From an uncultured Pseudomonadota bacterium (GTDB lineage: Bacteria > Pseudomonadota > Alphaproteobacteria > Rs-D84), in the NCBI GenBank assembly GCA_902795435.1, contig CADBLE010000007.1:1-43803 (forward strand): a DNA stretch of 43,803 nucleotides, given 5' to 3'. The position numbers were made by a program, and so were the translations under genes. The notes below the pieces were generated by a model that saw only the letters and a list, made by a program, of their open reading frames with translations, had not been told where the DNA came from and did not search any database. This document shows, piece by piece, positions 127 to 43,635 of the stretch. Numbering within the stretch: the first letter of the stretch is position 1; each line of letters begins with the position of its first letter.

Positions 127-1464
127 ATGAAAAATAAAATATTTTTAAGTTCTATGTTGATAATGTCGGTTGCACCGGCAATGGCGGAAAATTTTCCAAC
201 CGACGGTTTGATGCAGGAAAACAAAACATACGATAATGCCGCCACATCAACCAACATGGACGGCGTATATTCGGGAACCGTAAATGCAACCGCAGAATAT
301 GACACAATAGATTATATATTGTCCGCAGGACAATATTTACCAGCAGACAGCGAAACAAAAACAACATGTCCAGTGGGGTCTTTCTGTCCGGGTGGTTCAA
401 CCGTGCAATATAATCAAACAACGGCCCAGGGTATACAAACATGTCCAACGGGCTATGCGAGTTCCATTGCGGGGGCCAGCAGTGATACCGAATGTTATCG
501 TCAATGCAGTGGTAATGTAACAATTGCGCACGCAACTGGTGTAACCGGAAACGATTATTATGGAAACGGGGTTGACACCTGTGAACCAACCGGATGCGTC
601 AACGGTTATCATAAAAATGAAGCTGACGTAGTTGCAAAAACACCAATTGTTCCGTTTGATTATAACGATGCAGGATTAGGATATGAATATATTAATGCAA
701 ATGGTGTTTTTGGTGATGATGGTGATGGTATATCAGATTTATCGTTGACGGATAATAATACATGGGCGATGGTTGATGATGATGGAATTCTTTATGGTAA
801 AGCAAGTTGCCAACCGGATAATGATGCTGCTTCGCTGTATCTTGAATCTAATGGTGGAAAAGTTTTAAATGGCAATATGTCTGTTCAGGAATTTATGGCT
901 GGTTTTATACCTATTGTTGGTCAAGAAAAAGCAAATTGGGTACTAAGTTTATTTCAACAATATGCCAATGGACAATTAACACAGATAGATATGGCTGCAA
1001 AGCTGGCTTTAATGTTCAATACACATTACAATACTAATTATTCAACATCAGATAAAGGTAGGTATTGTTTTTGTCAAGTGGATGGCTACAAGCCAAATAA
1101 TGACGTTAGACAAAATATAAACAATGCTCCATGGGTTTACAAGGAAATCATGTCTGATATATCAGGATGTGATAATAGGTGTGCAAGTTATTGTGCAGAA
1201 CTTAGTATTACTCAGAATTTAAATTTGCGTGGTATGCTTGCTGCAATGATAGGGGCATTTGATAAAGTAAACGCATCATGTGAAGCGAACACAATTACAA
1301 TTAATTGGTCTGATGTTGACCCAGAATATGCGGGTCAAAACAACGAAGGTACCGCAACATACGGAAGTGACGTTCGTACCCCAGTTAAGGCACAAACCAT
1401 TAAGGGTAAGACATTCCGCGGTTGGCGTTTTAGTGCACCAACACAAACAACAACTGGTAATTAA
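127..1464 (+). CDS. Secreted cysteine-rich surface protein, paralog A (445 aa)
   Basis: A signal peptide (residues 1-20, cleavage after APAMA) is followed by a conserved N-terminal module. That module contains a cysteine motif around residues 81-90 (CPVGSFCPGG) and a second one near 104 (QTCPTGYASS), resembling the GCC2/GCC3 ephrin-receptor-like repeat. The central part (about 150-385) differs from the paralogs at 25583 and 42418. The last 60 residues (TITINW ... KTFRGWRF) are nearly constant across the family and resemble an InlB-type B repeat. The GGGAAAGAG upstream and the good signal peptide fix the start. Export is predicted; the role (surface antigen or adhesin) is inferred. It lies behind a terminator-containing leader and converges on polA. 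Confidence 0.85.
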   Translation: MKNKIFLSSMLIMSVAPAMAENFPTDGLMQENKTYDNAATSTNMDGVYSGTVNATAEYDTIDYILSAGQYLPADSETKTTCPVGSFCPGGSTVQYNQTTAQGIQTCPTGYASSIAGASSDTECYRQCSGNVTIAHATGVTGNDYYGNGVDTCEPTGCVNGYHKNEADVVAKTPIVPFDYNDAGLGYEYINANGVFGDDGDGISDLSLTDNNTWAMVDDDGILYGKASCQPDNDAASLYLESNGGKVLNGNMSVQEFMAGFIPIVGQEKANWVLSLFQQYANGQLTQIDMAAKLALMFNTHYNTNYSTSDKGRYCFCQVDGYKPNNDVRQNINNAPWVYKEIMSDISGCDNRCASYCAELSITQNLNLRGMLAAMIGAFDKVNASCEANTITINWSDVDPEYAGQNNEGTATYGSDVRTPVKAQTIKGKTFRGWRFSAPTQTTTGN

Positions 1465-5416: not shown

Positions 5417-8350
5417 TTAAAAAGAATAAGATACATTTAATTCGGCACTGGTATTATTTACATTATATGTAGAGCAGGTCCCGTCGTATCCCCATTTGTT
5501 GGTGGTATCATTAAATTTATATGTGCATATATTTCCCATTGTATCGGAATAGTAGAACATATTTACAGATGGTGGCAGAAGTTCTTGTTCAGAGCCATTG
5601 GTATATCTTGGCATATAATAATCGCCGTATGAATTTATCAACAGGAAAAATCCTGGACAATACAATGTGCCAGATTGAACTTCTAGCGTTTGTATATTGG
5701 CATTTTGGTCTGAATTTTCAATAACACAGAATAATTCAGAAGCCATTCCAGATACGCCATTGCAATAATATGGATCCAGACTAATATTGGCTCCTTCGCT
5801 TGAACTTCTATTTGCACATGATAATGTTGTTAAATATATAGCATAATGGTTTTCTGGAATACAGATTTTCTTGAATTTGTTATTGCTAGAGTATGGTGCT
5901 GCATATATATAACCGCCATCTGTACAACAATTGTTATCAGAATCTTTGTTTGCATTACCACCTTTGCAATAATTTCTAAGATTTTCAGATATAGTAATAT
6001 ATATAAGTTCATCAATGGTATCAGGTACTTGTTCACCATCTGGACCATAGATTTTATCGTCTTGTGCAGGCGTGTATATTTCAACACATTTGCCGTTTTT
6101 CAAAACAGTATTCATAGGACATGTATAAGCAGAACAACTGTTTCTTTGATTTGTTGTTCCGGTATTGTACGCCAACCAAGATAGCAAAGTTTCACCAGAT
6201 GTAGGTGTGAAAATTCTGTTGCTTAATTTATAATCTGGTTTGTTTTCTTTTAATGTATAAACCAATGCCGTTTGTGCATCATATTCACATTGTCCCCAAA
6301 TATATTCTGTTATTTCACAGGCAATATCATTTTCTTGACAATATTTTTTTGGTGTAGGATTTGTATCGGTATTATCAGTATTAGAATTTGCTGTATTATT
6401 TGCTGATATCACAGGTAATGTTTCCCATTTGTGTTGCAGGTCAAATTTAGAAAATACACCCTGTTGAACACAAGTTTTGATTTCATTCCAGCATGCTTGT
6501 TTTGTCAAAATTGCACGACGTGGTTGGTCTGTGTATTTTTCACACAGAGCAAAGTTTCCAGATGTTCCATTGCATTGTTGTATTATACAATCTTTGCCAA
6601 CGGTGGTACATGTTTCAAGAATTTTATCAATAGTTGTATCTTGGGCAATTCCATCCATTCCTGTTTCCCAATAATCTTCACCACCACCTGTTTGTGCCAT
6701 CAAATCAGAACAAGACGTTTGGACATCTGCACACAATGCATTGACGGTTGTATCTGCAATAACACCAAATGTTGATAATGCACGTGCATCAAAATCAGAA
6801 AGATTTTTTGTTTGATTTGTTTTACATTCTGCAACCAATGTTGTGCAACTCTGTCTGATTTCTTCTAATTTTGCGTTTTGTGCTAATTTAATTTTTCCCA
6901 AAGCATCATTCAAGAAATCTTTCCATACAACTGTCGCCATTGATTTACATTGTTCGGTTGCAGTTTCAAGATAAACTTTTTTAGAATTCAAGAACTTTAC
7001 AAATTTTTCGTTTTGTTTCATACCGGACCATGTTTCATTACCAGTAGGTGTCGTCAATAATGTTGTCAAATTGTATAAATTTGTAGATAAAAATGCTTCC
7101 CCAGTGGCTGGGTTTATATATTGTCCCGTTGTATCCAAACATTTGTATAAATCTTTACCACAGACAGATTCGTCATTTAATTGTTCCAATATCTTCTTTT
7201 TACAGGTTAAAATATCATCTGAATTTTGTTGTTGGTATGTGTTTAATCTGGCCATATCAAGCAGGGCGCCACTTTCGTGGATTTTGCTGATTGCTTGGTT
7301 ATATTGTGTTGTGTAAGATTTAGATACGGTATTACAATCTTGTTGGATTGCCAATTTATAGTTGCCTTGGACAATGTTTAATTCATCTTCGGAACAAACT
7401 TCTTTTGCCATTTCAATACATACAGGTGTAGCGGCGTTATACAATTCAATACCGTTTTTAGATGTGGTTGCAATACCTGATGTTGAATCAATGCTGTCCC
7501 ATGCGGAATCCACATCTAAATCGAGAGATATAGCAGACATTTCATTGTTGAATTTTGAATCAGAAGAATTGTTCAGAGAATCTGTAATTTTAGATAATAA
7601 TTTTTCTGATTCGGACCTGTCTTTTGTATTAAAACCAAGTTCGCCTTCGCTAGCTTTGTTTATGGCCGCAGCATCTTCTTTCTTCATAGAAACAGTCAAT
7701 AAACGTTGGTTGAAATCTAACATTTTGTCTTCAACGTTAGACAACTGCTTTTTTATACTATCAAATTCATGTATTCGTGAAGAACAAGAACATCTGCGTA
7801 AATTTGTGTCTTTGTTTGCGCAAAATTCATCCATACAATCGTAAAATACAGTTTTACATTGGGAATAATTTTTAGATTTGATATTTGCAATTTTATCGTT
7901 GTTCAAAATTGCCTGGGTTCGTGTAGCACGTGAAACAGCGGTTTTATTTGTAGATGTGCGTGCACTGGTTGTTTTTTTTGCAGATTTTGATGTGTTTGCA
8001 ACCCTGGAAGATGCAGCGTTTCTGGATACGGTAGAAATTTTTTTCTGGGTTGTTGGACGCTGTTTTACAACATGATTTTTTATAGCGGTTGTAGCAGCGG
8101 TGCGGTTTTTTACAGCATTTTGAGATGAACGTGTAATTGTTGTTGTGCGGGCATGTTCTTTGTCTTGTTGAGATTCTTTTGCGGATTGTTTAGATGTCGC
8201 GTTTGAACGTGACGAATTTTTTGCCGTTGAAACAGTTGTCGCAGTATCACGTTTTGATTGTGTTTTTTGTGTTTCTGCACTAAAAACGACCCCCGTCTGA
8301 AATACAGACAGAGCAAGGCATACAACAAAAAATCGTATTATCCTTTTCAT
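5417..8350 (-). CDS. Large secreted cysteine-rich protein of unknown function (977 aa)
   Basis: I do not recognise the family. Residues 1-25 form a signal peptide (MKRIIRFFVVCLALSVFQ then VVFSAE). Residues about 26-150 are a low-complexity Ser/Thr/Lys/Arg/Gln linker with many TTT, SKS and KKT runs, likely disordered. From about 155 the protein is rich in paired cysteines (CKTVFYDCMDEFC, RRCSCSS), with helical segments up to about 600. The C-terminal third is Tyr/Asn/Cys-rich (CSAYTCPMNTVLKNGKC and later repeats). This suggests a disulfide-stabilised envelope or extracellular protein. It stands alone on the minus strand with tRNA-Leu upstream. Confidence 0.75.
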   Translation of the reverse strand: MKRIIRFFVVCLALSVFQTGVVFSAETQKTQSKRDTATTVSTAKNSSRSNATSKQSAKESQQDKEHARTTTITRSSQNAVKNRTAATTAIKNHVVKQRPTTQKKISTVSRNAASSRVANTSKSAKKTTSARTSTNKTAVSRATRTQAILNNDKIANIKSKNYSQCKTVFYDCMDEFCANKDTNLRRCSCSSRIHEFDSIKKQLSNVEDKMLDFNQRLLTVSMKKEDAAAINKASEGELGFNTKDRSESEKLLSKITDSLNNSSDSKFNNEMSAISLDLDVDSAWDSIDSTSGIATTSKNGIELYNAATPVCIEMAKEVCSEDELNIVQGNYKLAIQQDCNTVSKSYTTQYNQAISKIHESGALLDMARLNTYQQQNSDDILTCKKKILEQLNDESVCGKDLYKCLDTTGQYINPATGEAFLSTNLYNLTTLLTTPTGNETWSGMKQNEKFVKFLNSKKVYLETATEQCKSMATVVWKDFLNDALGKIKLAQNAKLEEIRQSCTTLVAECKTNQTKNLSDFDARALSTFGVIADTTVNALCADVQTSCSDLMAQTGGGEDYWETGMDGIAQDTTIDKILETCTTVGKDCIIQQCNGTSGNFALCEKYTDQPRRAILTKQACWNEIKTCVQQGVFSKFDLQHKWETLPVISANNTANSNTDNTDTNPTPKKYCQENDIACEITEYIWGQCEYDAQTALVYTLKENKPDYKLSNRIFTPTSGETLLSWLAYNTGTTNQRNSCSAYTCPMNTVLKNGKCVEIYTPAQDDKIYGPDGEQVPDTIDELIYITISENLRNYCKGGNANKDSDNNCCTDGGYIYAAPYSSNNKFKKICIPENHYAIYLTTLSCANRSSSEGANISLDPYYCNGVSGMASELFCVIENSDQNANIQTLEVQSGTLYCPGFFLLINSYGDYYMPRYTNGSEQELLPPSVNMFYYSDTMGNICTYKFNDTTNKWGYDGTCSTYNVNNTSAELNVSYSF

Positions 8351-8615: not shown

Positions 8616-10103
8616 ATGAAAAAAACATCTTGTGCTTTATTTAACATAGTTGCTTTATCGCTAATACCGGCTGTGGCTGGGGCTGCGGGGACTTATTATA
8701 ATGGTTTGGGATACCAAAAAAATACCAGCAGTTATTACGATAATTATTCCAATTCACGTGGTGGAAATTATGCCTCTATGTACAAAAATGGTTATCAACA
8801 AAAAACAACTACTTCACGTAAAGTGGTAAAGAAAACAACCAAGAAAACATCTGAAAATGCATCTGCAAAATCTGGTCTTGTCCTTGGTGGTGCTTTAAGT
8901 CATGAATTTGGTTCATGGGATTTTGAAATGAGAACTGCTGGTTCAAAATTGGCCTATGATAAATTATCTTGGAATGTTATTGGTGGTGAAGGCGCTTATT
9001 ATTTTGGTGATTCAACACCTATGCAAATCAAATTTGGTGCCAGATATGGTAAACAATTTGGTGAAACATCTATGATTGACGATGATATTACCAAAGGTGG
9101 CTATCTGAACATGGAATGGACAGATGAAAATGGTAATGTTATCGCAAATCAAACGGGGCATGCGCTGTCTGTTGGTTCCAGCAAAGGTGGAACACAAATG
9201 GGCTTTAATGCTGCGTTTGGTTTAACAGATTTCTTTAAATGGGGTAAGGTAAAAATCACACCATCTGTTGGTTTTCGTTATTTGAAATATGAATTGTCAA
9301 CAAAACAAAATTATGGTTTATCAATAGATATATTGGAATCAAGTTCGTCTTATCCATATATAACATGTATAAATGGTTATAATGGCGAATTACAATGTGA
9401 TCCATTCTTGTTATTCTATTCGTCAAATGGTGCGGTAACAATTACAGGGCGTGTTGAAGAAGATACTGATGGTGATGGACAAAATGAAGTTTCTGAAATG
9501 ATTCAAATTCCTTCTATTGCAGGGTTTAATGTTTCTGGTGTTGGAACCGGTGGTACATATTATTATGAGCAATCTGGAACCAGCCATAAATATGAAACAA
9601 CATGGATGGGGCCTTATGTAGCATTTGATGCTGAATATGAAATAAATAAAGATAACTTTGTTTATGGTGGTGTTGAAATTGGTTTGCCATTATATCGTTC
9701 CGAAGGTGATCAACCATATCGTTATGATTGGCAACATCCAAAGAGTGTAGAAGACAAAGGTTCTTTCGGTGATGCATATCATATTGGTTTAAATGCAAAT
9801 TGGTCAACAAATATTACTGATACAACTGCATTTACATTGGGTGTAACATACGATTATTATACAGTATCAAAAGCAACTGCGAAAACATATATGAATTCTG
9901 CACATTACACAGAATTATATGATGATTATACAGACGCTTTGGAAAACAATGTTTTGACCGAATATCAACGTGCAATTTTGGAAGACGAAGTTGCCAAGAT
10001 AGAAGAATATAAAGCAGCAAATTGGGTTCTGGAAGATAAAGACGAAATCAAATCTATCTATAAAGCAATGGGAATCCGTGCTGGTATAAATGTTAAATTC
10101 TAG
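8616..10103 (+). CDS. Outer-membrane beta-barrel protein, possibly omptin-like
   Basis: A signal peptide (1-23, ending VAGAA) is followed by a Tyr/Ser/Lys-rich segment (about 25-85), then strand-rich sequence ending in NVKF, a typical barrel C-terminus. The order of motifs resembles omptins: KLAYDKLSWNV early, a SMIDDDI segment where OmpT has its Asp83/Asp85 pair, then WTDENGN and GPYVAFDAEY. The Asp-x-His pair of omptins is not evident (YDWQHP is the nearest), so proteolytic activity is doubtful. At 495 residues it is longer than omptins (about 300). It is the first gene of a likely operon with 10112 and 10742. The GAAGGAAAAACCT ribosome site supports the start. Confidence 0.7.
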   Translation: MKKTSCALFNIVALSLIPAVAGAAGTYYNGLGYQKNTSSYYDNYSNSRGGNYASMYKNGYQQKTTTSRKVVKKTTKKTSENASAKSGLVLGGALSHEFGSWDFEMRTAGSKLAYDKLSWNVIGGEGAYYFGDSTPMQIKFGARYGKQFGETSMIDDDITKGGYLNMEWTDENGNVIANQTGHALSVGSSKGGTQMGFNAAFGLTDFFKWGKVKITPSVGFRYLKYELSTKQNYGLSIDILESSSSYPYITCINGYNGELQCDPFLLFYSSNGAVTITGRVEEDTDGDGQNEVSEMIQIPSIAGFNVSGVGTGGTYYYEQSGTSHKYETTWMGPYVAFDAEYEINKDNFVYGGVEIGLPLYRSEGDQPYRYDWQHPKSVEDKGSFGDAYHIGLNANWSTNITDTTAFTLGVTYDYYTVSKATAKTYMNSAHYTELYDDYTDALENNVLTEYQRAILEDEVAKIEEYKAANWVLEDKDEIKSIYKAMGIRAGINVKF

Positions 10104-25582: not shown

Positions 25583-26791
25583 ATGTCACAAAAAATCTTT
25601 TTAACATCCGCCCTTGCAATGGGCGTGTTTGCGCCGGCATTTGCGGAAATGACGGATTCCAATACATTCCCAAATGCGTCTCAGGGTGAATATATGCAGG
25701 AAAACACCAGATATATTGGTGCCGCAACATCAACAAATATGGCCGGTGTGTATGAAGACGGTGCAACCGTAGATGCGGTCGCAGAATACGATATCATAGA
25801 TTATATCGTAAATGCGGGACAATATTTGCCTGCGGATTCCGAAACCGTAATAACATGTCCGGCGGGCTCGTTTTGTCCGGGAATCAGCGGTAATGTAAAT
25901 TATAATCAAAATTCTGACCAGGGTATACAAACATGTCCAAACGGCTATACAAATTCAGTTGCTGGATCATCTGCAAATACAGACTGTTACAGAACTTGTG
26001 CCACAACAGATATAACACATGCAACAGCAATAACAGGTAATGTCTATTTTAACGGTACCAATGGTGACGGTGTAAAAGCATGTACCCCAACAGCATGCGA
26101 CAATGGATATCATCCAAAATCAGCCACACCAAATTTAACAACAGTAATCGGCACAAGTGAAGCAGGTACAGGATATACATCAAACGATAGTACGGGTTCT
26201 GAGTTCGGCACAAACGGTATGTCAAATTCAGTTATCTCAGGGGATTCAATGGCGTTCGCCGTGGACTATGGTAATAAAGGAATGATAAAAGGTCACGGAA
26301 GATGTAGTACACAAAGTGGAAGTCGTGGAAATATGTCGGGTGGCACATATCCTGATATAACAATACGTGCAGATTTAACAAATCAACCAGGACAATATTG
26401 CTATTGTCATTTGGATAGCTATACGCCAGTTAGTGGCAGTGCTATTGCCTTGTCGGGTCCTTGGGTGTTCTACTACGACTTCGGCCCCGCTGGCGCTTGC
26501 GCGGCTTACTGTGAGCGCGGCTGTGCGCGCAACCTGCTGTACGGCGACTCGGGCAACCTCGCGTTCCGTGCTGCGGTGTTTGGTGCAATAGAATCAAGTC
26601 CAGCCATGTGTGAAGCAAACACAATTACAATTAATTGGTCGAATGCAGATGCAAACGATATATCCGCAAACAATGCGGGTACCGCAACGTATGGCGAAGA
26701 CGTCAGAACCCCAGTCAAGGCCGCAACCAAGAAAGGTCAAACATTCCGTGGCTGGAGATTCAGCGCACCGGAACAAACCAATTTGCCATAA
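25583..26791 (+). CDS. Secreted cysteine-rich surface protein, paralog B (402 aa)
   Basis: Signal peptide 1-21 (cleavage after FAPAFA), then the constant N-terminal module: NTFPNASQGEYMQENTRY, YLPADSETVITCPAGSFCPG, GIQTCPNGYTNS. The centre (about 150-335) is unlike paralogs A and C. It includes a Gly/Ser-rich part and a Cys/Ala-rich part, AGACAAYCERGCARNLLYG, encoded by a GC-rich patch (26453-26582). The C-terminal 60 residues (TITINW to FRGWRFSAPEQTNLP) match the other two almost exactly. AAGGAAGGAAGAAA is the ribosome site. The leader upstream carries the microsatellite mini-ORF and terminator. Confidence 0.85.
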   Translation: MSQKIFLTSALAMGVFAPAFAEMTDSNTFPNASQGEYMQENTRYIGAATSTNMAGVYEDGATVDAVAEYDIIDYIVNAGQYLPADSETVITCPAGSFCPGISGNVNYNQNSDQGIQTCPNGYTNSVAGSSANTDCYRTCATTDITHATAITGNVYFNGTNGDGVKACTPTACDNGYHPKSATPNLTTVIGTSEAGTGYTSNDSTGSEFGTNGMSNSVISGDSMAFAVDYGNKGMIKGHGRCSTQSGSRGNMSGGTYPDITIRADLTNQPGQYCYCHLDSYTPVSGSAIALSGPWVFYYDFGPAGACAAYCERGCARNLLYGDSGNLAFRAAVFGAIESSPAMCEANTITINWSNADANDISANNAGTATYGEDVRTPVKAATKKGQTFRGWRFSAPEQTNLP

Positions 26792-29071: not shown

Positions 29072-29950
29072 ATGGAAGAAAAACAAGAAGTAATATCACC
29101 AATTATGGAAATGACTGCGGGCGAAATGTTGCGTAATGCACGCACCACAGGACGCAGAAAACGTGAAATTTCTACAATTGCAAAATTGCTGTGTATCAAA
29201 GAAGAATTTTTAGAAGCATTGGAATCTGGCAATTATCGTGTTATCCCAGAAGATGTTTATATTTTAGGTTTTGCACGCAGTTATGCTGTTGAATTGGGTT
29301 TGAACCCAGATGAAGTTATCCAAAAACTGAAAAAAGAATTGGGTATCGTTCCAGAAGAAAAAGATGACGAAGAAGAAAAAAGCGAACCTTGTGCAAAGGC
29401 ACCTTGCAAAATCAACAAAGAAATGATGTTGAAATACGCAAAATCATCATACGAATATGTTAAAAAACATTGGGTTTGGTTTGCATCTGGATTATTGGGT
29501 GTAATTGTTGTTATTTTGTTATGTGTAATTTTATTTTCTGCGAAACCAACATCTGAATCAGAATCTGTCAATGATGCAACCGTTGCAGAAGAAAATGTTG
29601 TTCAAGTTGTAAAGAAAGAACCAGATTTCAGATATCCTGTTCATGAAAAATTTGATGCGAAAAACAAAAAAACTTGGGCTGATTCCCGCGTTGTATTACA
29701 GGCGGAAAAAGAATCTTGGATTCAAATAAAAGACGCACGTGGAAACACAGTATTTACACGCGTTTTGGTTCCAGGTGATGTTTATTACATGCCACTTAGC
29801 GATAATTACAAGGGAACATTTGGAAACGCGGGTGCAATAGATGTTTGGGTTGATGGTCAATTGTTAAAGAAAATTGGACCTGCAAACACCAGAAAAGAAG
29901 GTGTTTCTATGTCGCCTGATGCGTTGAAATCATTTGGCTTTGCAGAATAA
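29072..29950 (+). CDS. rodZ: RodZ-like helix-turn-helix membrane protein
   Basis: 292 residues. The N-terminal Xre-type HTH (about 10-90: AGEMLRNARTTGRRKREIST then EALESGNYRVIPEDVYILGFARSYA) is followed by an acidic linker with a Cys pair (CAKAPC), a membrane helix (about 135-157, FASGLLGVIVVILLCVILF), and a DUF4115 periplasmic domain (SWIQIKDARGNTVFTRVLVPGDVYYMPL). RodZ links MreB to the cell-wall elongation machinery. AAAGGATTTAGTT precedes the ATG. It lies between dus and uvrA on the same strand, with modest gaps. Confidence 0.88.
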   Translation: MEEKQEVISPIMEMTAGEMLRNARTTGRRKREISTIAKLLCIKEEFLEALESGNYRVIPEDVYILGFARSYAVELGLNPDEVIQKLKKELGIVPEEKDDEEEKSEPCAKAPCKINKEMMLKYAKSSYEYVKKHWVWFASGLLGVIVVILLCVILFSAKPTSESESVNDATVAEENVVQVVKKEPDFRYPVHEKFDAKNKKTWADSRVVLQAEKESWIQIKDARGNTVFTRVLVPGDVYYMPLSDNYKGTFGNAGAIDVWVDGQLLKKIGPANTRKEGVSMSPDALKSFGFAE

Positions 29951-30004: not shown

Positions 30005-32863
30005 ATGTCTGGATTTATAAAGATTCGTGGTGCTCGCGAAAATAATCTTAAAAATATTGATTTAGACCTGCCAAAAAATAAATTGGTGGTGCTGACTGGT
30101 ATGTCGGGGTCGGGCAAATCGTCGTTGGCGTTCAATACCATTTATGCCGAAGGTCAAAGAAGATATGTTGAATCTTTGTCCAGTTATGCGCGTCAATTCC
30201 TGGACATGCAGAAAAAACCAGATGTTGATTCCATAGAAGGTTTATCACCTGCAATTTCCATTGAACAAAAAACAACTTCTAAAAATCCGCGTTCAACCGT
30301 TGGAACCGTTACGGAAATTTATGATTATTTGCGTTTGTTGTGGGCGCGTATCGGGGTGCCTCATTCACCGGTGACTGGGTTGCCAATTAAATCACAAACT
30401 ATTGCGGAAATGGTGGAAAGAACGCTGACATTACCAGAAGGAACAAAATTCTATATCATGGCACCTTATATTCGTGAACGAAAGGGTGAATACAAGAAAG
30501 AAATTGCTTTCCTGATTAAACAGGGTTATCAACGTGCAATAGTTGATGGTGAATTATATGATTTGTCATCTGTGCCACCTTTGGATAAAAATAAAAAGCA
30601 CACAATTTATATTATCATTGACCGTGTCGCAATGAATTACAAAGATTTAAATGAAGATGATGCAGAAGAATTTCGTTCCCGTATTTATTCTTCATTTGAA
30701 GCATCTCTGCGTTTGATTTCTGGTTCTGTGATTTTGCGTCGTTTGGATACAAATGAAGATGTTTTATTTTCACAAGAATATGCGTGTCCAGTCAGTGGAT
30801 TCACAGTTCCAAAGATAGAACCAAGATTATTTTCATTTAATGCACCAATGGGCGCGTGCAGTGGTTGTGATGGTTTGGGTGTTCAATTAAATATTTCGCC
30901 TGATTTGGTTGTGCCAGATCCAACAAAATCTATATTGGGTGGTGCAATCGCACCATGGTCGCGTGGCGGTATGTTAAGCCAATATGAACACATAATGGAC
31001 GCGTTGCATAAAAAATACAAAATACCTTTGTCAAAGCCATGGCACACATTATCTCAGAAAGAAAAAGATATTATTTTATATGGCACAGGTGACGAAGATA
31101 TTAAAATAAATTGGAACGGTTATATTTATGAAAAACCGTACGAAGGCGTTATTCCAAATCTGGAACGCAGATTGCGTGAATCTGATTCAGAAGCAACCAG
31201 AACAGAATTATCAAAATATCAATCTGAAAAACCATGTCCAATGTGTCATGGAAAAAGATTAAATATCCAGGCATTGTGTATAAAAATCAACAAATGCGAC
31301 ATTATGGATGTTTGTGATATGCCTGTTGATGAATCTTTGCGCTGGTTCCAAGAATTGCCACAACATTTATCTGAAAAAGACAATGAAATCGCAGGTATGG
31401 TTTTGCGTGAAATTACATCCAGATTATATTTCTTGCAAAATGTTGGATTGGGATATTTAACATTATCTCGTATGGCGGGAACTTTATCTGGTGGTGAAGC
31501 ACAAAGAATCAGATTGGCATCTCAGATTGGCAGTGGTTTATCAGGTGTTTTATATGTATTGGACGAACCGTCTATTGGTCTGCATCAAAGTGATAATGAT
31601 AAATTGATAGACACATTGAAAATGTTGCGCGACAAAGATAACACAGTTATCGTTGTGGAACACGACGAAGATATGATGCGTTCCGCAGATTATTTGGTTG
31701 ATATTGGTCGTGGTGCGGGGATAAACGGTGGAAATGTTGTCGCCAAAGGAACCCCAGCGGAAGTTATCAAAAATCCTGATTCTTTGACCGGTATGTATTT
31801 ATCTGGCAAAAGAAAAATAGAAGTTCCAAAAAAACGCAGAAAGGGAAATGGTAAATTCATAACAATTCACGGGGCGCGTGAAAACAATCTGAAAAATATA
31901 GATGTAGAATTTCCATTGGGTAAATTTATCGCGCTGACCGGGGTTTCGGGGTCTGGAAAATCAACTCTGTTATTGGATACTTTGTATCCTGCGATAATGC
32001 GTATTTTGTATAATTCTAAATTAGAAACGGGTGCGCATGATGTTATAACCGGTATGGAAAATATAGACAAAGTTGTAGATATTGACCAATCTCCGATTGG
32101 ACGCAGCCCACGCAGTAATCCTGCGACATACGTTGGTGTATTTAATAATATTCGTGATTTTTATGCAGGTCTGCCAGAAGCAAAAGCGCGCGGATATGAT
32201 GCGGGTCGTTTTTCATTTAATGTCAAAGGTGGCCGTTGCGAAGCGTGTCAGGGTGATGGTCAAATCAAAATTGAAATGAATTTCTTGGCTGATATTTATG
32301 TGGAATGTGATAAATGTCATGGTCAAAGATATAATGAAGAAACTTTACAGGTTAAATACAAGGGTAAATCTATTGCCGATGTATTAAATATGACGGTTGA
32401 AGAAGCGTACAGATTCTTTGTAAATGTACCACAAATTGCCAGAAAACTTGAATTGTTAAAACGCGTTGGTCTGGATTATATTAAATTGGGACAGAGTTCG
32501 CTTGATTTATCGGGTGGTGAAGCACAAAGAATTAAATTATCCAAGGAATTGGCTGCACGCAGTACTGGTCAAACAATATATATTTTAGATGAACCAACAA
32601 CGGGACTTCATTTTGAAGATATTCGTTCGCTGTTGTCTGTATTGCATGAATTTGTAGACCAAGGAAACACAGTTATTGTTATTGAACATAATTTGGAAGT
32701 TATCAAGACAGCCGATTGGATTATAGATTTGGGGCCAAATGGTGGTGCTGGTGGTGGTCAGGTTGTGGCCGTTGGAACCCCAGAAGATATTGTTAAAATT
32801 CCTGAATCTTTGACGGGAAAATATCTTAAAAAGTATCTTGATAAACCAAAGAAAACAAAATAA
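30005..32863 (+). CDS. uvrA: UvrABC excinuclease subunit A
   Basis: 952 residues; damage-recognition ATPase of nucleotide excision repair. It has two ABC modules: Walker [13 protein letters not shown] and [12 protein letters not shown], signatures LSGGEAQRI (both), and Walker [13 protein letters not shown] and [12 protein letters not shown]. The second zinc module CEACQGDG...CDKCHGQR is complete, and CPMCHGKR is present. In the first zinc module, the first CxxC reads Cys261-Pro-Val-Ser264, so one ligand is lost; the partner pair ([10 protein letters not shown]) remains. I recall the same CPVSGF variant in other alphaproteobacterial UvrA. No clear ribosome site precedes the ATG. Confidence 0.98.
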
Positions 32864-32898
32864 AATTAAAACATAAACAAACAACAAGGAGACATATA

Positions 32899-33420
32899 AT
32901 GTTCGGATTTGGAAAAAAGAAACAAGAAGTTAAAAACGAAAATATTGATTTGGAAAAAGAAGCCGCAAAAATGCCATCTGGTATGAAAGAAACCGCAGAA
33001 CGTATGATGGCTGGTCAATTTGATATGAATGATATGTTGGCTCAATTGAAACAAATCAAAAAGATGAGCAATTTTAGTGGTCTGTTGAAAATGGTACCGG
33101 GTATGAGTGGCGCTGTGTCTGCTATGAAAGAAAAAATCAAAGACGGCAGTGTTGATGCACAAATCAAAATACTTGAAGCAATGACAGTTGAAGAACGCGC
33201 AGACCCAGAAAAAATATTCGCAAATGCAAAGGCACGTATTGCAGAAAGTGCGGGTTGCACAGTGCGTGAAGTTGAACATATCATTAAACAATATCTGAAA
33301 ATGAAACAGCAAATGGCTATGATTCAACGTATGGGTGGAATGGAAGCGGTTATGCAGCGTATGCAAGCAAATGGTGGTTTCCCAGGTGCAAAACCAACAA
33401 CACCGGCGGGAAATAAATAA
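32899..33420 (+). CDS. Stand-alone SRP54 M-domain protein
   Basis: 173 residues aligning with the C-terminal methionine-rich domain of Ffh/SRP54. It includes the finger-loop region (FDMNDMLAQLKQIKKMSNFSGLLKMVPGM, read in two parts) and the SRP-RNA-binding helix-turn-helix (RIAESAGCTVREVEHIIKQY), then a Met/Gln-rich end (MKQQMAMIQRMGGMEAVM). Typical Ffh has a GSG where SAG stands here. The NG GTPase domain, about 300 residues, is missing: the gene starts with MFGFGKKKQEVKNENIDLEK after a strong AAGGAGACATATA site. It lies 35 bp after uvrA and 5 bp before rlmE, not beside rpsP-rimM-trmD. It may be half of a split Ffh or a paralog. Confidence 0.8.
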   Translation: MFGFGKKKQEVKNENIDLEKEAAKMPSGMKETAERMMAGQFDMNDMLAQLKQIKKMSNFSGLLKMVPGMSGAVSAMKEKIKDGSVDAQIKILEAMTVEERADPEKIFANAKARIAESAGCTVREVEHIIKQYLKMKQQMAMIQRMGGMEAVMQRMQANGGFPGAKPTTPAGNK

Positions 33421-33425
33421 TAAAA

Positions 33426-34085
33426 ATGAAAATCCTGAACAAAAAAATTGCAGCACATAAATCGTCTGTTGCGTGGCTTCAACGCCAGGCACATGACCCG
33501 TATGTTGCACGTGCCCAGAAAGATGGTTATCGTGCGCGCGCTGCATATAAAATCATAGAAATGAATGAAAAATATCATTTCTTGAAAAATGGTCAGGTTG
33601 TTGTTGATTTAGGTGCTGCGCCGGGTTCTTGGTCGCAATATGTTGCACGTGATTTTCCTAAATCGAAAATATTTGCTATGGATTTATTGGAAATCAAGGC
33701 TATAAACGGTGTTGAAACATATCAGGGTGATTTTACCAGTGATGAAGCGTTACGCTGGCTTGAAACAAAATTAAATTTACCACATGATATTGAAGGATGC
33801 GGAACGGCTGATGTTGTTATGTCTGATATGGCACCAAATACGGTTGGACATAAAAAGACAGACCATCTGCGTCAAATGGTTTTATTAGAGTATGCTTTTG
33901 ATTTCGCATTAAAGGCATTGAAAGTAGGGGGGACATTTGTTGCTAAATCTTTCACAGGTGGCACAACAAATGATTTAATCAAACAAATCAACGCACGTTT
34001 TACAAATGTGCATCATATTAAACCCCCGTCTTCACGTAAAGATTCTGTTGAAATGTTTATCGTGGCCACGGGATTCAAGGGTTAA
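33426..34085 (+). CDS. rlmE: 23S rRNA 2'-O-ribose U2552 methyltransferase
   Basis: 219 residues of the FtsJ/RrmJ family. It contains RAAYKIIEMNEKYHF, with Lys of the catalytic tetrad, the SAM motif VVVDLGAAPGSWSQY, VVMSDMAPNTVGHK with the Asp, the Lys in GGTFVAKSFTG, and a final Glu in SVEMFIVATGF. It matures the large subunit. It starts 5 bp after the M-domain gene, so both likely share a transcript. Confidence 0.96.
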   Translation: MKILNKKIAAHKSSVAWLQRQAHDPYVARAQKDGYRARAAYKIIEMNEKYHFLKNGQVVVDLGAAPGSWSQYVARDFPKSKIFAMDLLEIKAINGVETYQGDFTSDEALRWLETKLNLPHDIEGCGTADVVMSDMAPNTVGHKKTDHLRQMVLLEYAFDFALKALKVGGTFVAKSFTGGTTNDLIKQINARFTNVHHIKPPSSRKDSVEMFIVATGFKG

Positions 34086-37853: not shown

Positions 37854-39494
37854 ATGAAAAAAATAGCAATTTGTTCTTTATTATTAGCATTAGGAATTTG
37901 TTTTAATGGTTTTGCGGAACCAAATTTTGATAAGTATAAGTGTAAGACTACATCTTGTGGTGCCGGTGGTGATGATGGTGGTTATAACCAGGGTTTGTTG
38001 AGAACAGACGGTAAAGTTGGAAACGAATTTTCTTCTGGTAGTTGTTATAGATGTAATTGGGGTGATGATGATTATGAATGCCCTGTTGGTGCAGTTATTG
38101 CAATTGGAGCCAAAGATTATCGTGTTACGGGGGAAATTAAGGGTTTTTGGACCTGTACAGAAGATGGAAAAGCAGATGACGATTGGATAAATACAAATCC
38201 TAATTATACATGTCCTGCGGATAGTAGTGCAATGGCTGATTTTGCTAGGAAAATGCGTAGGGATTATATTATTGTGTCGGGTGATTCGCATGCAACAGCA
38301 CATTTTATATTAGGTGATGGATTTAAAACTGGTGAAGAAAAAGACCGTTCGGGCGACAATCTTGTTTTAAGTAGTGGTGAAGATGGTTGTGTGGTATATT
38401 TGTGTGAAAAAGGCTATAAAGCAGATGGAGATCGTCGTGAATGTATAAAAGATGGACAATCTCCTCAACAGCCAGGTGGAGGCGCTGGTGGTGTTAATAA
38501 TACCGTTATTATCAATAATAATGTACAAGGTGGTGGGCAGCAAGGTGGGCAGCAAAGCGGTTTTGATTGCACAACACCTGGTAATGAATTGGCTACAAAA
38601 ACTATCAGTGGTGTTACCGCTTGCTCTGGTGGTGCTTGTCTTGTAATTGAAGCGGGTCAATGTTATCCATATAAATACTTAAGATGTATGGAAGCAATTG
38701 CCGAAGGTAAAGAAACAAAAATTACATGGAATACAACCGAATGTGTTTGCACAGACGATAAGAAAGAATTTGATTATGACGCAAGAAAGTGTGTGTCCAA
38801 AAACGCTAAAAGAACATGTGAAGAAATACATCCAAATGGCAGTCCAGAAAGATTAGCATGCTGTCGTGCTGGTTCTGCAACAAGATGGAATGGTTCTGAA
38901 ACATCTGGTACTTGCACATGTAACAACGGTACAAAATGGTTATATACTGCGGGGGACAGAACAGGTCAATGTGTTGCCCAAGAGCAACCAGTACAACCAG
39001 TTGTACCAACTACACAACAATGTTGGTATTCATTTAGTGCAGATGTAAAATGTGCAAATGGTGCGATGATATCTAAAACTTCTGGGTTCAATGTAAATAC
39101 TCAAATGTCAAGTTGTGAAGAATTTACAGCATTGTATCATAGTGATCAATCTTATATCTTGGAAATGGCTGAAAAATATTGTCGTCAACATCCAGAATTA
39201 CCAGTAATTGATGACAAAGCATTTAATGCAGCGAAAGACAGTATCAATGCGTTCTTTGGCAGTGCAAAGAGTTCTGCATCAGTATGGAAGAATTCCGAAG
39301 GTAAATTCAACACAGCACGTCTTGCATCAGATTTGACAGCGGGTGTTGTTTTGGGAACCGTTGGTGGTGTTGTTTCTGGTGTTGTAATTAAAAAGAAACA
39401 AATTGAAAAAGGATTTGAAGCATTACATTGCACCGTTGGTGGCCAGAAAGTTGCCGATTGGGGTGATGAATTCAATATCGGTTTAAGAAAATAA
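37854..39494 (+). CDS. Secreted cysteine-rich protein of unknown function (546 aa)
   Basis: Signal peptide 1-21 (ending FNGFA). The N-terminal half has scattered paired Cys (CKTTSCGAGG, CYRCNWGDDDYECPVG), then a Gly/Asn/Gln-rich linker (about 203-235: GGGAGGVNN, VQGGGQQGGQQ). A second Cys-rich part follows (CEEIHPNGSPERLACCRAG, CTCNNGTKW). Near the C-terminus (about 487-512) a Gly/Val-rich hydrophobic segment (TAGVVLGTVGGVVSGVVI) could insert in a membrane, followed by KKKQIEKGFEALHC. It is not a sequence match to the TITINW family. AAGGAAGGAAGTT is the ribosome site. Function is unknown. Confidence 0.75.
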   Translation: MKKIAICSLLLALGICFNGFAEPNFDKYKCKTTSCGAGGDDGGYNQGLLRTDGKVGNEFSSGSCYRCNWGDDDYECPVGAVIAIGAKDYRVTGEIKGFWTCTEDGKADDDWINTNPNYTCPADSSAMADFARKMRRDYIIVSGDSHATAHFILGDGFKTGEEKDRSGDNLVLSSGEDGCVVYLCEKGYKADGDRRECIKDGQSPQQPGGGAGGVNNTVIINNNVQGGGQQGGQQSGFDCTTPGNELATKTISGVTACSGGACLVIEAGQCYPYKYLRCMEAIAEGKETKITWNTTECVCTDDKKEFDYDARKCVSKNAKRTCEEIHPNGSPERLACCRAGSATRWNGSETSGTCTCNNGTKWLYTAGDRTGQCVAQEQPVQPVVPTTQQCWYSFSADVKCANGAMISKTSGFNVNTQMSSCEEFTALYHSDQSYILEMAEKYCRQHPELPVIDDKAFNAAKDSINAFFGSAKSSASVWKNSEGKFNTARLASDLTAGVVLGTVGGVVSGVVIKKKQIEKGFEALHCTVGGQKVADWGDEFNIGLRK

Positions 39495-42417: not shown

Positions 42418-43635
42418 ATGTCACAAAAAATCTTTTTAACCAGTGCGCTTGCAATGGGCTTTGTTGCACCGGCATTTGCAGAAATGACGGATTCCAATAC
42501 ATTCCCAAATGCGTCTCAGGGTGAATATATGCAGGAAAACACCAGATATATCGGTGCCGCAACATCAACAAATATGGACGGCGTATATTCGGGAACCGTA
42601 AATGCGGTTGCGGAATACGATATCATAGATTATATCGTCAATGCGGGACAATATTTGCCGGCGGATTCTGAAACAGTAATAACATGTCCGGCGGGCTCTT
42701 TCTGTCCGGGAATTGACGGTAATGTCCAATATAATCAAAGCACACCCCAGGGTATACAAACATGTCCAACGGGCTATGCCAGTTCCGCGGCGGGCGCATC
42801 ATCAGATACACAATGTTATCGTACATGCGATATAAATAATATGGGAACATCGTTCACAAATATCGCCCACGCAACGGCGGTATCTGGAAACGATTATTAT
42901 GGTTCCGGTACCGATACATGTTCTGCTACTGGTTGTGAAAATGGTTGGCATATAACATCAGACACTTTGTTTGATATAATAGGCTGGAAAGCAGCTATAA
43001 ATAGTGTATACATAGATGATACAGGTGTATTTGATGAACAGGGTGGATCAAATGGGCAATCATACTATGGATTGACGGAAAATAATAGTTGGGCAGTAGA
43101 ATATGACGATAATAAAGGTATAGTAATAGGCAAAGCTGGTTGTAGTAATCGTAGTGCGAGCGGCTGGATAGGTAGTTGGGTATTAAAGTCAGATGATTTT
43201 GTAGATAATTTAGCTGAAGAACCAGGTGCAAGCTATTGTTATTGTAAAGTGATCGGATATAAAGATAGTGATGGTGTAATACAAAATGTATCTTCTCCGT
43301 GGGCATATCGCAGTAGTCTTATGAATTGTGATTCTACATGCGCCAGAATATGTTCTGGAAATTTTGCTTCTAACACTTACACTTTTGACGGAAACGATAG
43401 AAGGTATAAAGGAGCCGTATTAGATAAGGTTCCTTTTGGCCCAGCTACATGTGAAGCGAATACAATTACAATTAACTGGAACGATGTTGACCCAGAATAT
43501 GCAGGTCAAAATAACGAAAACACCGCTGTTTATGGCGAAGACGTCAGAACCCCAGTCAAGGCCGCAACCAAGAAAGGTCAAACATTCCGTGGTTGGCGTT
43601 TCAGCAAACCGGAACAAACCAATTTGCCAGAATAG
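42418..43635 (+). CDS. Secreted cysteine-rich surface protein, paralog C (405 aa)
   Basis: Signal peptide 1-21 (MSQKIFLTSALAMGFVAPAF then A). The N-terminal module is almost identical to paralog B (NTFPNASQGEYMQENTRY, DSETVITCPAGSFCPGI, GIQTCPTGYASSAAGAS). Its VYSGTVNAVAEYD and the GNDYYGSGTDTC segment resemble paralog A more. The centre (about 165-340) is unique, with an AT-rich composition and Cys in CYCKV and CDSTCARICSG. The C-terminal TITINW...FRGWRFSKPEQTNLPE matches the family. AAAAGGAAGGAAGAAA is the ribosome site. It ends with the terminator at 43708. Confidence 0.85.
   Translation: MSQKIFLTSALAMGFVAPAFAEMTDSNTFPNASQGEYMQENTRYIGAATSTNMDGVYSGTVNAVAEYDIIDYIVNAGQYLPADSETVITCPAGSFCPGIDGNVQYNQSTPQGIQTCPTGYASSAAGASSDTQCYRTCDINNMGTSFTNIAHATAVSGNDYYGSGTDTCSATGCENGWHITSDTLFDIIGWKAAINSVYIDDTGVFDEQGGSNGQSYYGLTENNSWAVEYDDNKGIVIGKAGCSNRSASGWIGSWVLKSDDFVDNLAEEPGASYCYCKVIGYKDSDGVIQNVSSPWAYRSSLMNCDSTCARICSGNFASNTYTFDGNDRRYKGAVLDKVPFGPATCEANTITINWNDVDPEYAGQNNENTAVYGEDVRTPVKAATKKGQTFRGWRFSKPEQTNLPE

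Follow-up and report, generated by a model that had tools for sequence, protein, structure and literature searches.

The genomes of one alphaproteobacterial genus appear to lack the SRP GTPases and 4.5S RNA, a strong result that holds genus-wide, and they retain the M domain of Ffh as a short gene of its own. Its product (here, the M protein) is, with moderate confidence, a remnant of ffh that would act at the ribosome exit as a binder of signal sequences and transmembrane (TM) segments, free of both GTP and RNA. The gene was found in a window of 43,803 nucleotides (the whole stretch of DNA that was analyzed), which is contig C7 of a 955-kb genome in 15 contigs, estimated to be 90% complete. 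The features of the locus are as follows.

30005 to 32863, plus strand: uvrA, 5' neighbor of the M gene (NCBIfam UvrA, 1483 bits)
32886 to 32891, plus strand: Shine-Dalgarno sequence AAGGAG of the M gene (from the sequence)
32899 to 33420, plus strand: stand-alone Ffh M-domain gene, 173 aa, an intact open reading frame with an ATG start
32899 to 32922, plus strand: conserved N-terminal octapeptide MFGFGKKK (alignment A1)
32923 to 32967, plus strand: hypervariable linker from the octapeptide to the M domain (alignment A1)
33016 to 33315, plus strand: M domain proper, PF02978 match
33067 to 33123, plus strand: finger-loop region of the signal-sequence groove, near-invariant across the genus (alignments)
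33217 to 33255, plus strand: degenerate SRP-RNA-binding motif, FANAKARIAESAG, for which an example from an order Ffh is LMGRKKRIAKGAG
33426 to 34085, plus strand: rlmE, 3' neighbor of the M gene (NCBIfam RlmE/rrmJ)

Profile searches confirmed that the gene encodes a real stand-alone Ffh/SRP54 M domain, as the initial annotation had proposed. SRP_SPB (M domain, PF02978) was the sole domain over a Pfam cutoff, with an E value of 3.2e-22 and 79 bits versus a cutoff of 27, and the match spanned residues 40 to 139 of the 173-aa protein and the full profile (1 to 91). The NCBIfam ffh model (TIGR00959) was matched only at positions 314 to 427 of 428, the M domain in its last quarter, with 86 bits versus a cutoff of 473, and with the match confined to the M part, the NG GTPase domain is absent from the protein. 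Among solved structures, its closest relatives are M domains of E. coli Ffh. The gene also has the ribosome site of its own that had been read from the DNA, and the neighbors named at the same time, uvrA (stop codon 35 bp upstream) and rlmE (5 bp downstream), both had NCBIfam matches.

This arrangement is repeated across the genus. Of 33 genus loci, 31 have the stand-alone gene directly after uvrA and the remaining two begin at contig ends, and the gene is therefore not an assembly artifact; the frameshift or assembly error that might have removed an NG domain can be set aside. In 32 of the 33 loci rlmE is present (the remaining locus ends inside the M gene), at a distance from M of anywhere between a few bases and about 1 kb, and GGAG precedes the ATG in all 31 loci with upstream sequence.

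Elsewhere in the window, the stretch at 29072 to 29950, flanked by a Dus gene and uvrA, encodes a RodZ-like protein according to weak NCBIfam matches. Three long open reading frames (5417 to 8350, minus strand; 37854 to 39494, plus strand; 127 to 1464, plus strand) had no Pfam match at an E value of 1e-4, two others (25583 to 26791 and 42418 to 43635) had no NCBIfam match, and the frame at 8616 to 10103 (plus strand) weakly matched the Protochlamydia outer membrane protein family Pom (8e-10).

The comparison set comprised 59 genomes: 35 from the genus (G000 to G034), 18 from the order, and 6 from the class. Of the 35 genus genomes, 33 have an M domain. Its frame is short throughout, 150 to 232 aa from stop to stop, except in G023, where the M gene is divided between two contig ends. 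Long-frame M domains, representing full-length Ffh, were found in 18/18 order relatives (440 to 489 aa) and 5/6 class genomes (451 to 601 aa). The window genome contains a single M domain, that of the gene at 32899 to 33420, and the same search was positive in 14 of 14 control genomes. G120, a genus genome rated 100% complete, had neither an M match nor rlmE, and rlmE is also absent from the G004 and G034 assemblies; thus, the whole locus rather than the M gene alone is missing from these assemblies.

When the genus alignment was searched against named genomes, 175 relatives were found and the best 80 were kept. These 80 are metagenome-assembled genomes (MAGs) of uncultured Alphaproteobacteria or proteobacterium, many from the ruminant gut, and include three of Candidatus Enterousia. 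In 79 of these best 80 of 175 the protein begins with MFGF in an open frame of 158 to 178 aa; the remaining one is cut by a contig end. Because of the matches among these named relatives, the window genus is probably Candidatus Enterousia (Alphaproteobacteria known from rumen and gut MAGs), which is described as belonging to GTDB order Rs-D84, with genomes of around 0.75 to 1.0 Mb (PMC12306168).

Across the class, M domains were found in 346 of 385 alphaproteobacterial genomes. Among the matches listed, two frames were shorter than 300 aa (G397 and G116), each lying at most 700 bases from a contig start, and further stand-alone cases may exist beyond the matches listed. The M search was also negative in several class genomes that lie outside the genus and are well assembled, and in five of eight such genomes examined no PF00448 domain passed the cutoff either. 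Five genomes outside the genus, mostly good assemblies (G106, G127, G101, G182, and G069), lack both domains, an outcome that genuine loss of SRP, masking, or a failure of the search could each explain; two others (G162 and G135) had two GTPase matches each and no M domain. Given such absences of M and PF00448 in the class, absence from a single genome is weak evidence, and the claim of genus-wide absence is based on 156 genomes.

No SRP GTPase domain (PF00448) exceeded the cutoff in the window genome, where the best weak match, at 19 bits, is presumably Der, judged by its two GTPase motifs; the search was positive in 14/14 control genomes. None of the 35 genus genomes had a domain over the cutoff, compared with 18 of 18 order genomes (two each) and 6 of 6 class genomes. 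Extending the PF00448 search to 156 genus genomes revealed neither Ffh-NG nor FtsY after two matches were removed. These two exceeded the cutoff of 22.7 marginally (23.1 and 23.0) and were rejected as SRP GTPases, both being Der proteins 77% identical to that of the window genome. At least 90% completeness with at most 5% contamination was recorded for 103 of the 156, and one is a single-contig assembly at 99%. Order relatives such as G035, G036, G037, and G043 carry their two SRP GTPase genes on different contigs, so a single shared assembly gap cannot explain losing both.

The RNA partner was sought with two covariance models. With the Rfam model, the window genome gave no 4.5S RNA match at E values up to 10 (13 of 14 control genomes were positive), and matches were found in 0/35 genus, 15/18 order, and 6/6 class genomes. 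Because this model missed three order genomes, a purpose-built model, R1, was trained on 15 sequences from the order and 4 from the class. It detected 4.5S RNA in 17 of 18 order genomes (the exception, G044, is 72% complete) and in 6 of 6 class genomes, and it recovered four genomes outside its training set (G038, G039, G055, and G058), two of them untrained order genomes with E values of 8.1e-9 (G038) and 2.9e-10 (G039). Even so, R1 found 4.5S RNA in none of the 35 genus genomes at E values up to 1; only two chance-level matches appeared among them, at 3.6 and 4.1.

The M protein has also changed where Ffh meets this RNA. In the aligned stretch, E. coli has SRKRRIAAGSG, residues of which we take to contact 4.5S RNA, and the M protein has NAKARIAESAG. 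An Arg that is invariant in 20/20 order and class Ffh proteins is Ala in 32/32 genus M proteins, and in 80/80 of the named loci (the best 80 of 175 relatives). The mean charge of the 13-residue motif is +4.4 in order Ffh versus +1.2 in genus M. The initial annotation had singled out SAG in place of GSG; this is literally true and is not telling, as GAG already replaces GSG in 11 of 15 order Ffh proteins (L010 to L028). Order Ffh with GAG coexists with 4.5S RNA, the latter present in 17 of 18 order genomes. The decisive change in the alignments is the loss of basic residues preceding the GSG position. In plastids and protist mitochondria, too, the RNA-binding motif is mutated where the SRP RNA has been lost (PMC8321541). 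Since no such RNA was found and the contact residues are lost, 4.5S RNA binding by the M protein, which had been suggested, appears unlikely.

The rest of the domain has been conserved. Over the M region, dN/dS has a median of 0.053 and a maximum of 0.150 (110 of 496 pairs, those with dS under 1.5), indicative of strong purifying selection. The groove helices and finger loop are kept in the genus alignments, and methionine content is 11.6% in genus M versus 10.4% in Ffh. The octapeptide MFGFG[KR]KK is present in 31 of 31 rows of alignment A1 that include the N terminus, with varying Gly codons, and could be a membrane or ribosome contact. Order FtsY proteins start with MFGKLG or MFGKFG in 13 of 14 loci listed (L259 does not match the pattern); an origin of MFGFGKKK as a piece of FtsY was considered and dropped, as the likeness spans too few residues for a test.

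In a tree of 11 genus M, 15 order Ffh, and 5 class Ffh sequences (MAP67 sequences were left out), genus M formed one clade (100/100) that grouped with the Ffh of G036, an order member in which this protein is full length (97/92), a placement indicating that the M gene descends from the Rs-D84 order's own Ffh. The stem of the clade measures 1.32 changes per column and the branches inside it are short, which points to a single burst of change followed by constraint. One of six order ffh loci shown (G038, L096) has ffh directly before rlmE; M is therefore possibly at a former ffh site, and this single case hints that genus M occupies the ancestral place of ffh.

The AlphaFold model of the M protein had a mean pLDDT of 67 and a pTM of 0.54, with part of the finger loop below 50. 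Foldseek returned no match at an E value of 0.001 or below (best, 1.5e-3), and its top rows were all SRP54/Ffh. With VIA-align, the model aligned to the M domain of ribosome-bound Ffh (5gag) with a Z score of 12.5 (111 residues; rmsd, 4.0) and to mL105 (6z1p) with a Z score of 9.8 (120 residues; rmsd, 5.4).

A mechanism consistent with these observations can be proposed. As the genome searches show, the ancestor of the genus lost the Ffh NG domain, FtsY, and 4.5S RNA while the M domain of ffh remained, and this domain would then have gained its conserved MFGFGKKK start plus a variable linker. Judging by the conserved groove and finger loop, the methionine-rich groove probably binds hydrophobic signal sequences or TM segments, and it would do so without GTP and without RNA. 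As mitochondrial mL105 does, the M protein would most likely reside at the tunnel exit of the ribosome or close to it, and it could pass nascent membrane proteins to SecYEG/YidC through affinity or proximity; ribosome binding and hand-off are proposed here by analogy. The N-terminal Phe/Lys patch perhaps touches the membrane or the ribosome. As a more tentative extension, possible rather than probable, one nucleotide-free M protein may combine Ffh recognition with part of FtsY tethering across the genus, its MFGFGKKK touching the membrane, in an independent repeat of the mL105/MAP67 step.

YidC was found in 33 of 35 genus genomes. An Oxa1-like C-terminal tail was considered as a compensating ribosome anchor and rejected, as none was found in the 31 of 31 genus YidC proteins read. 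The mitochondrial analogy is therefore incomplete, and tethering, if any, would be by other means. Genus YidC (L182 to L217) has a cytoplasmic loop about 10 residues longer before the last TM stretches than that of most order relatives, centered around conserved ND and AQTQ.

Two explanations had been offered initially for the lone M domain. In one, Ffh is split, and an NG domain encoded elsewhere joins the M protein; because the genus searches turned up no NG domain, Ffh is not split. The lack of any SRP GTPase in 156 genomes, and hence of an FtsY partner, and the lack of 4.5S RNA refute this idea within the reach of PF00448 and leave it almost no credence, with room for an NG domain too divergent for that profile. 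In the other, the protein is an extra M-domain adaptor beside a normal SRP pathway. The M gene is the sole M domain in the genome, and because neither full-length Ffh nor FtsY nor 4.5S RNA accompanies it, the protein is not such an adaptor, a reading now refuted and as improbable as the split. A genome search for full-length Ffh, an NG-only Ffh, and the 4.5S RNA, which had been put forward as the way to decide, found none of them. The suggested relevance to a modified targeting system without GTP control holds. A decaying relic, or an artifact of annotation or assembly, would suit genomes reduced to about 1 Mb, but the low dN/dS, the frame kept open in 79 of the best 80 named loci, and the constant uvrA neighbor refute it, and its chances are very slim.

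Two further roles deserve more weight. The NG domain supplies part of the ribosome contact of Ffh, and the M protein has no NG domain, has lost the RNA contact, and has kept the hydrophobic groove; each of these points would fit a soluble, SecB-like holdase that acts posttranslationally in the cytosol, off the ribosome. However, mL105 likewise consists of this domain without NG and does bind at the ribosome exit, and the M domain itself is at the exit in an SRP-ribosome structure (PMC9576764), so a holdase is unlikely, if worth keeping in mind. The fold might instead have been co-opted outside targeting, for example, in ribosome assembly or in binding another RNA. Because the stem branch is long, the function of the M protein may have shifted, and this case is strengthened by rlmE, a 23S methyltransferase gene to which M is linked in 32 of 33 loci. 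Yet the finger loop and groove residues are conserved, basic RNA-binding residues were lost rather than gained, and the distance to rlmE is variable, which makes co-option distinctly improbable. Binding of signal sequences and TM segments at the ribosome exit is thus the reading carried forward here.

SRP has been called conserved in all living organisms (PMC7844537). Work on Evansia points to an absence of ffh from certain tiny endosymbionts of insects (PMC4122945), a possible precedent for the loss of SRP as such; ffh/SRP is described as retained in M. endobia and IOLA (PMC3620526, PMC8155191). The portions of the open-access literature searched contained no description of SRP loss or of a lone M domain in Enterousia, and the available text of the Enterousia study PMC12306168 does not mention SRP, signal recognition, or Ffh. 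A natural lineage without both GTPases and the RNA, in which the M domain is under strong selection, singles out the component of SRP that is least easily given up, and it makes testable whether signal-sequence binding alone, without GTP control, is enough for membrane targeting. If the proposed role is true, membrane proteins are targeted in an entire bacterial genus without the SRP GTPase cycle. The genus also offers a bacterial test case for the shedding of SRP by mitochondria.

Among known systems, bacterial Ffh has the M fold, finger loop, and methionine-rich groove in common with the M protein, but it comes with an NG GTPase, a 4.5S contact motif, FtsY, and an RNA gene, none of which the genus has. 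The RNA-free SRP54 proteins, plastid cpSRP54 and protist mtFfh, resemble the genus in their mutated RNA motif and absent RNA. Plastid cpSRP54 keeps its NG GTPase and FtsY. These RNA-free forms are described as retaining both (PMC8321541), whereas the genus studied here has neither. Laboratory loss of SRP in Streptococcus mutans and in E. coli suppressors indicates that bacteria survive without it (PMC7844537), but that loss was induced, while the present one arose in nature, extends across the genus, and spares the M domain.

The nearest likeness is to mitochondrial mL105 and its wider family, MAP67, which are also Ffh M domains without NG (PMC7326499, PMC9576764, PMC8321541). As in these proteins, the M domain makes up all of the folded part of the M protein. 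Tetrahymena thermophila mL105 (6z1p_AT) matched profile A1 in sequence with an E value of 3.2e-5. At the tunnel exit, the C-terminal helix of mL105 reaches the tunnel and bL23m (PMC7326499), and algal mL105 is held by bL24m and uL29m and contacts density that is probably OXA1L (PMC9576764). Where studied, mL105 is a resident mitoribosome protein, and MAP67 sometimes carries SecA-like C-terminal pieces. Both are nuclear encoded and mitochondrial, whereas the M gene is chromosomal and bacterial, and it differs further in its MFGFGKKK start and, among the tree rows used, in its apparent descent from Rs-D84 Ffh. The M gene is a new, bacterial version of the mitochondrial stand-alone M-domain protein, and it is ancient in its genus.
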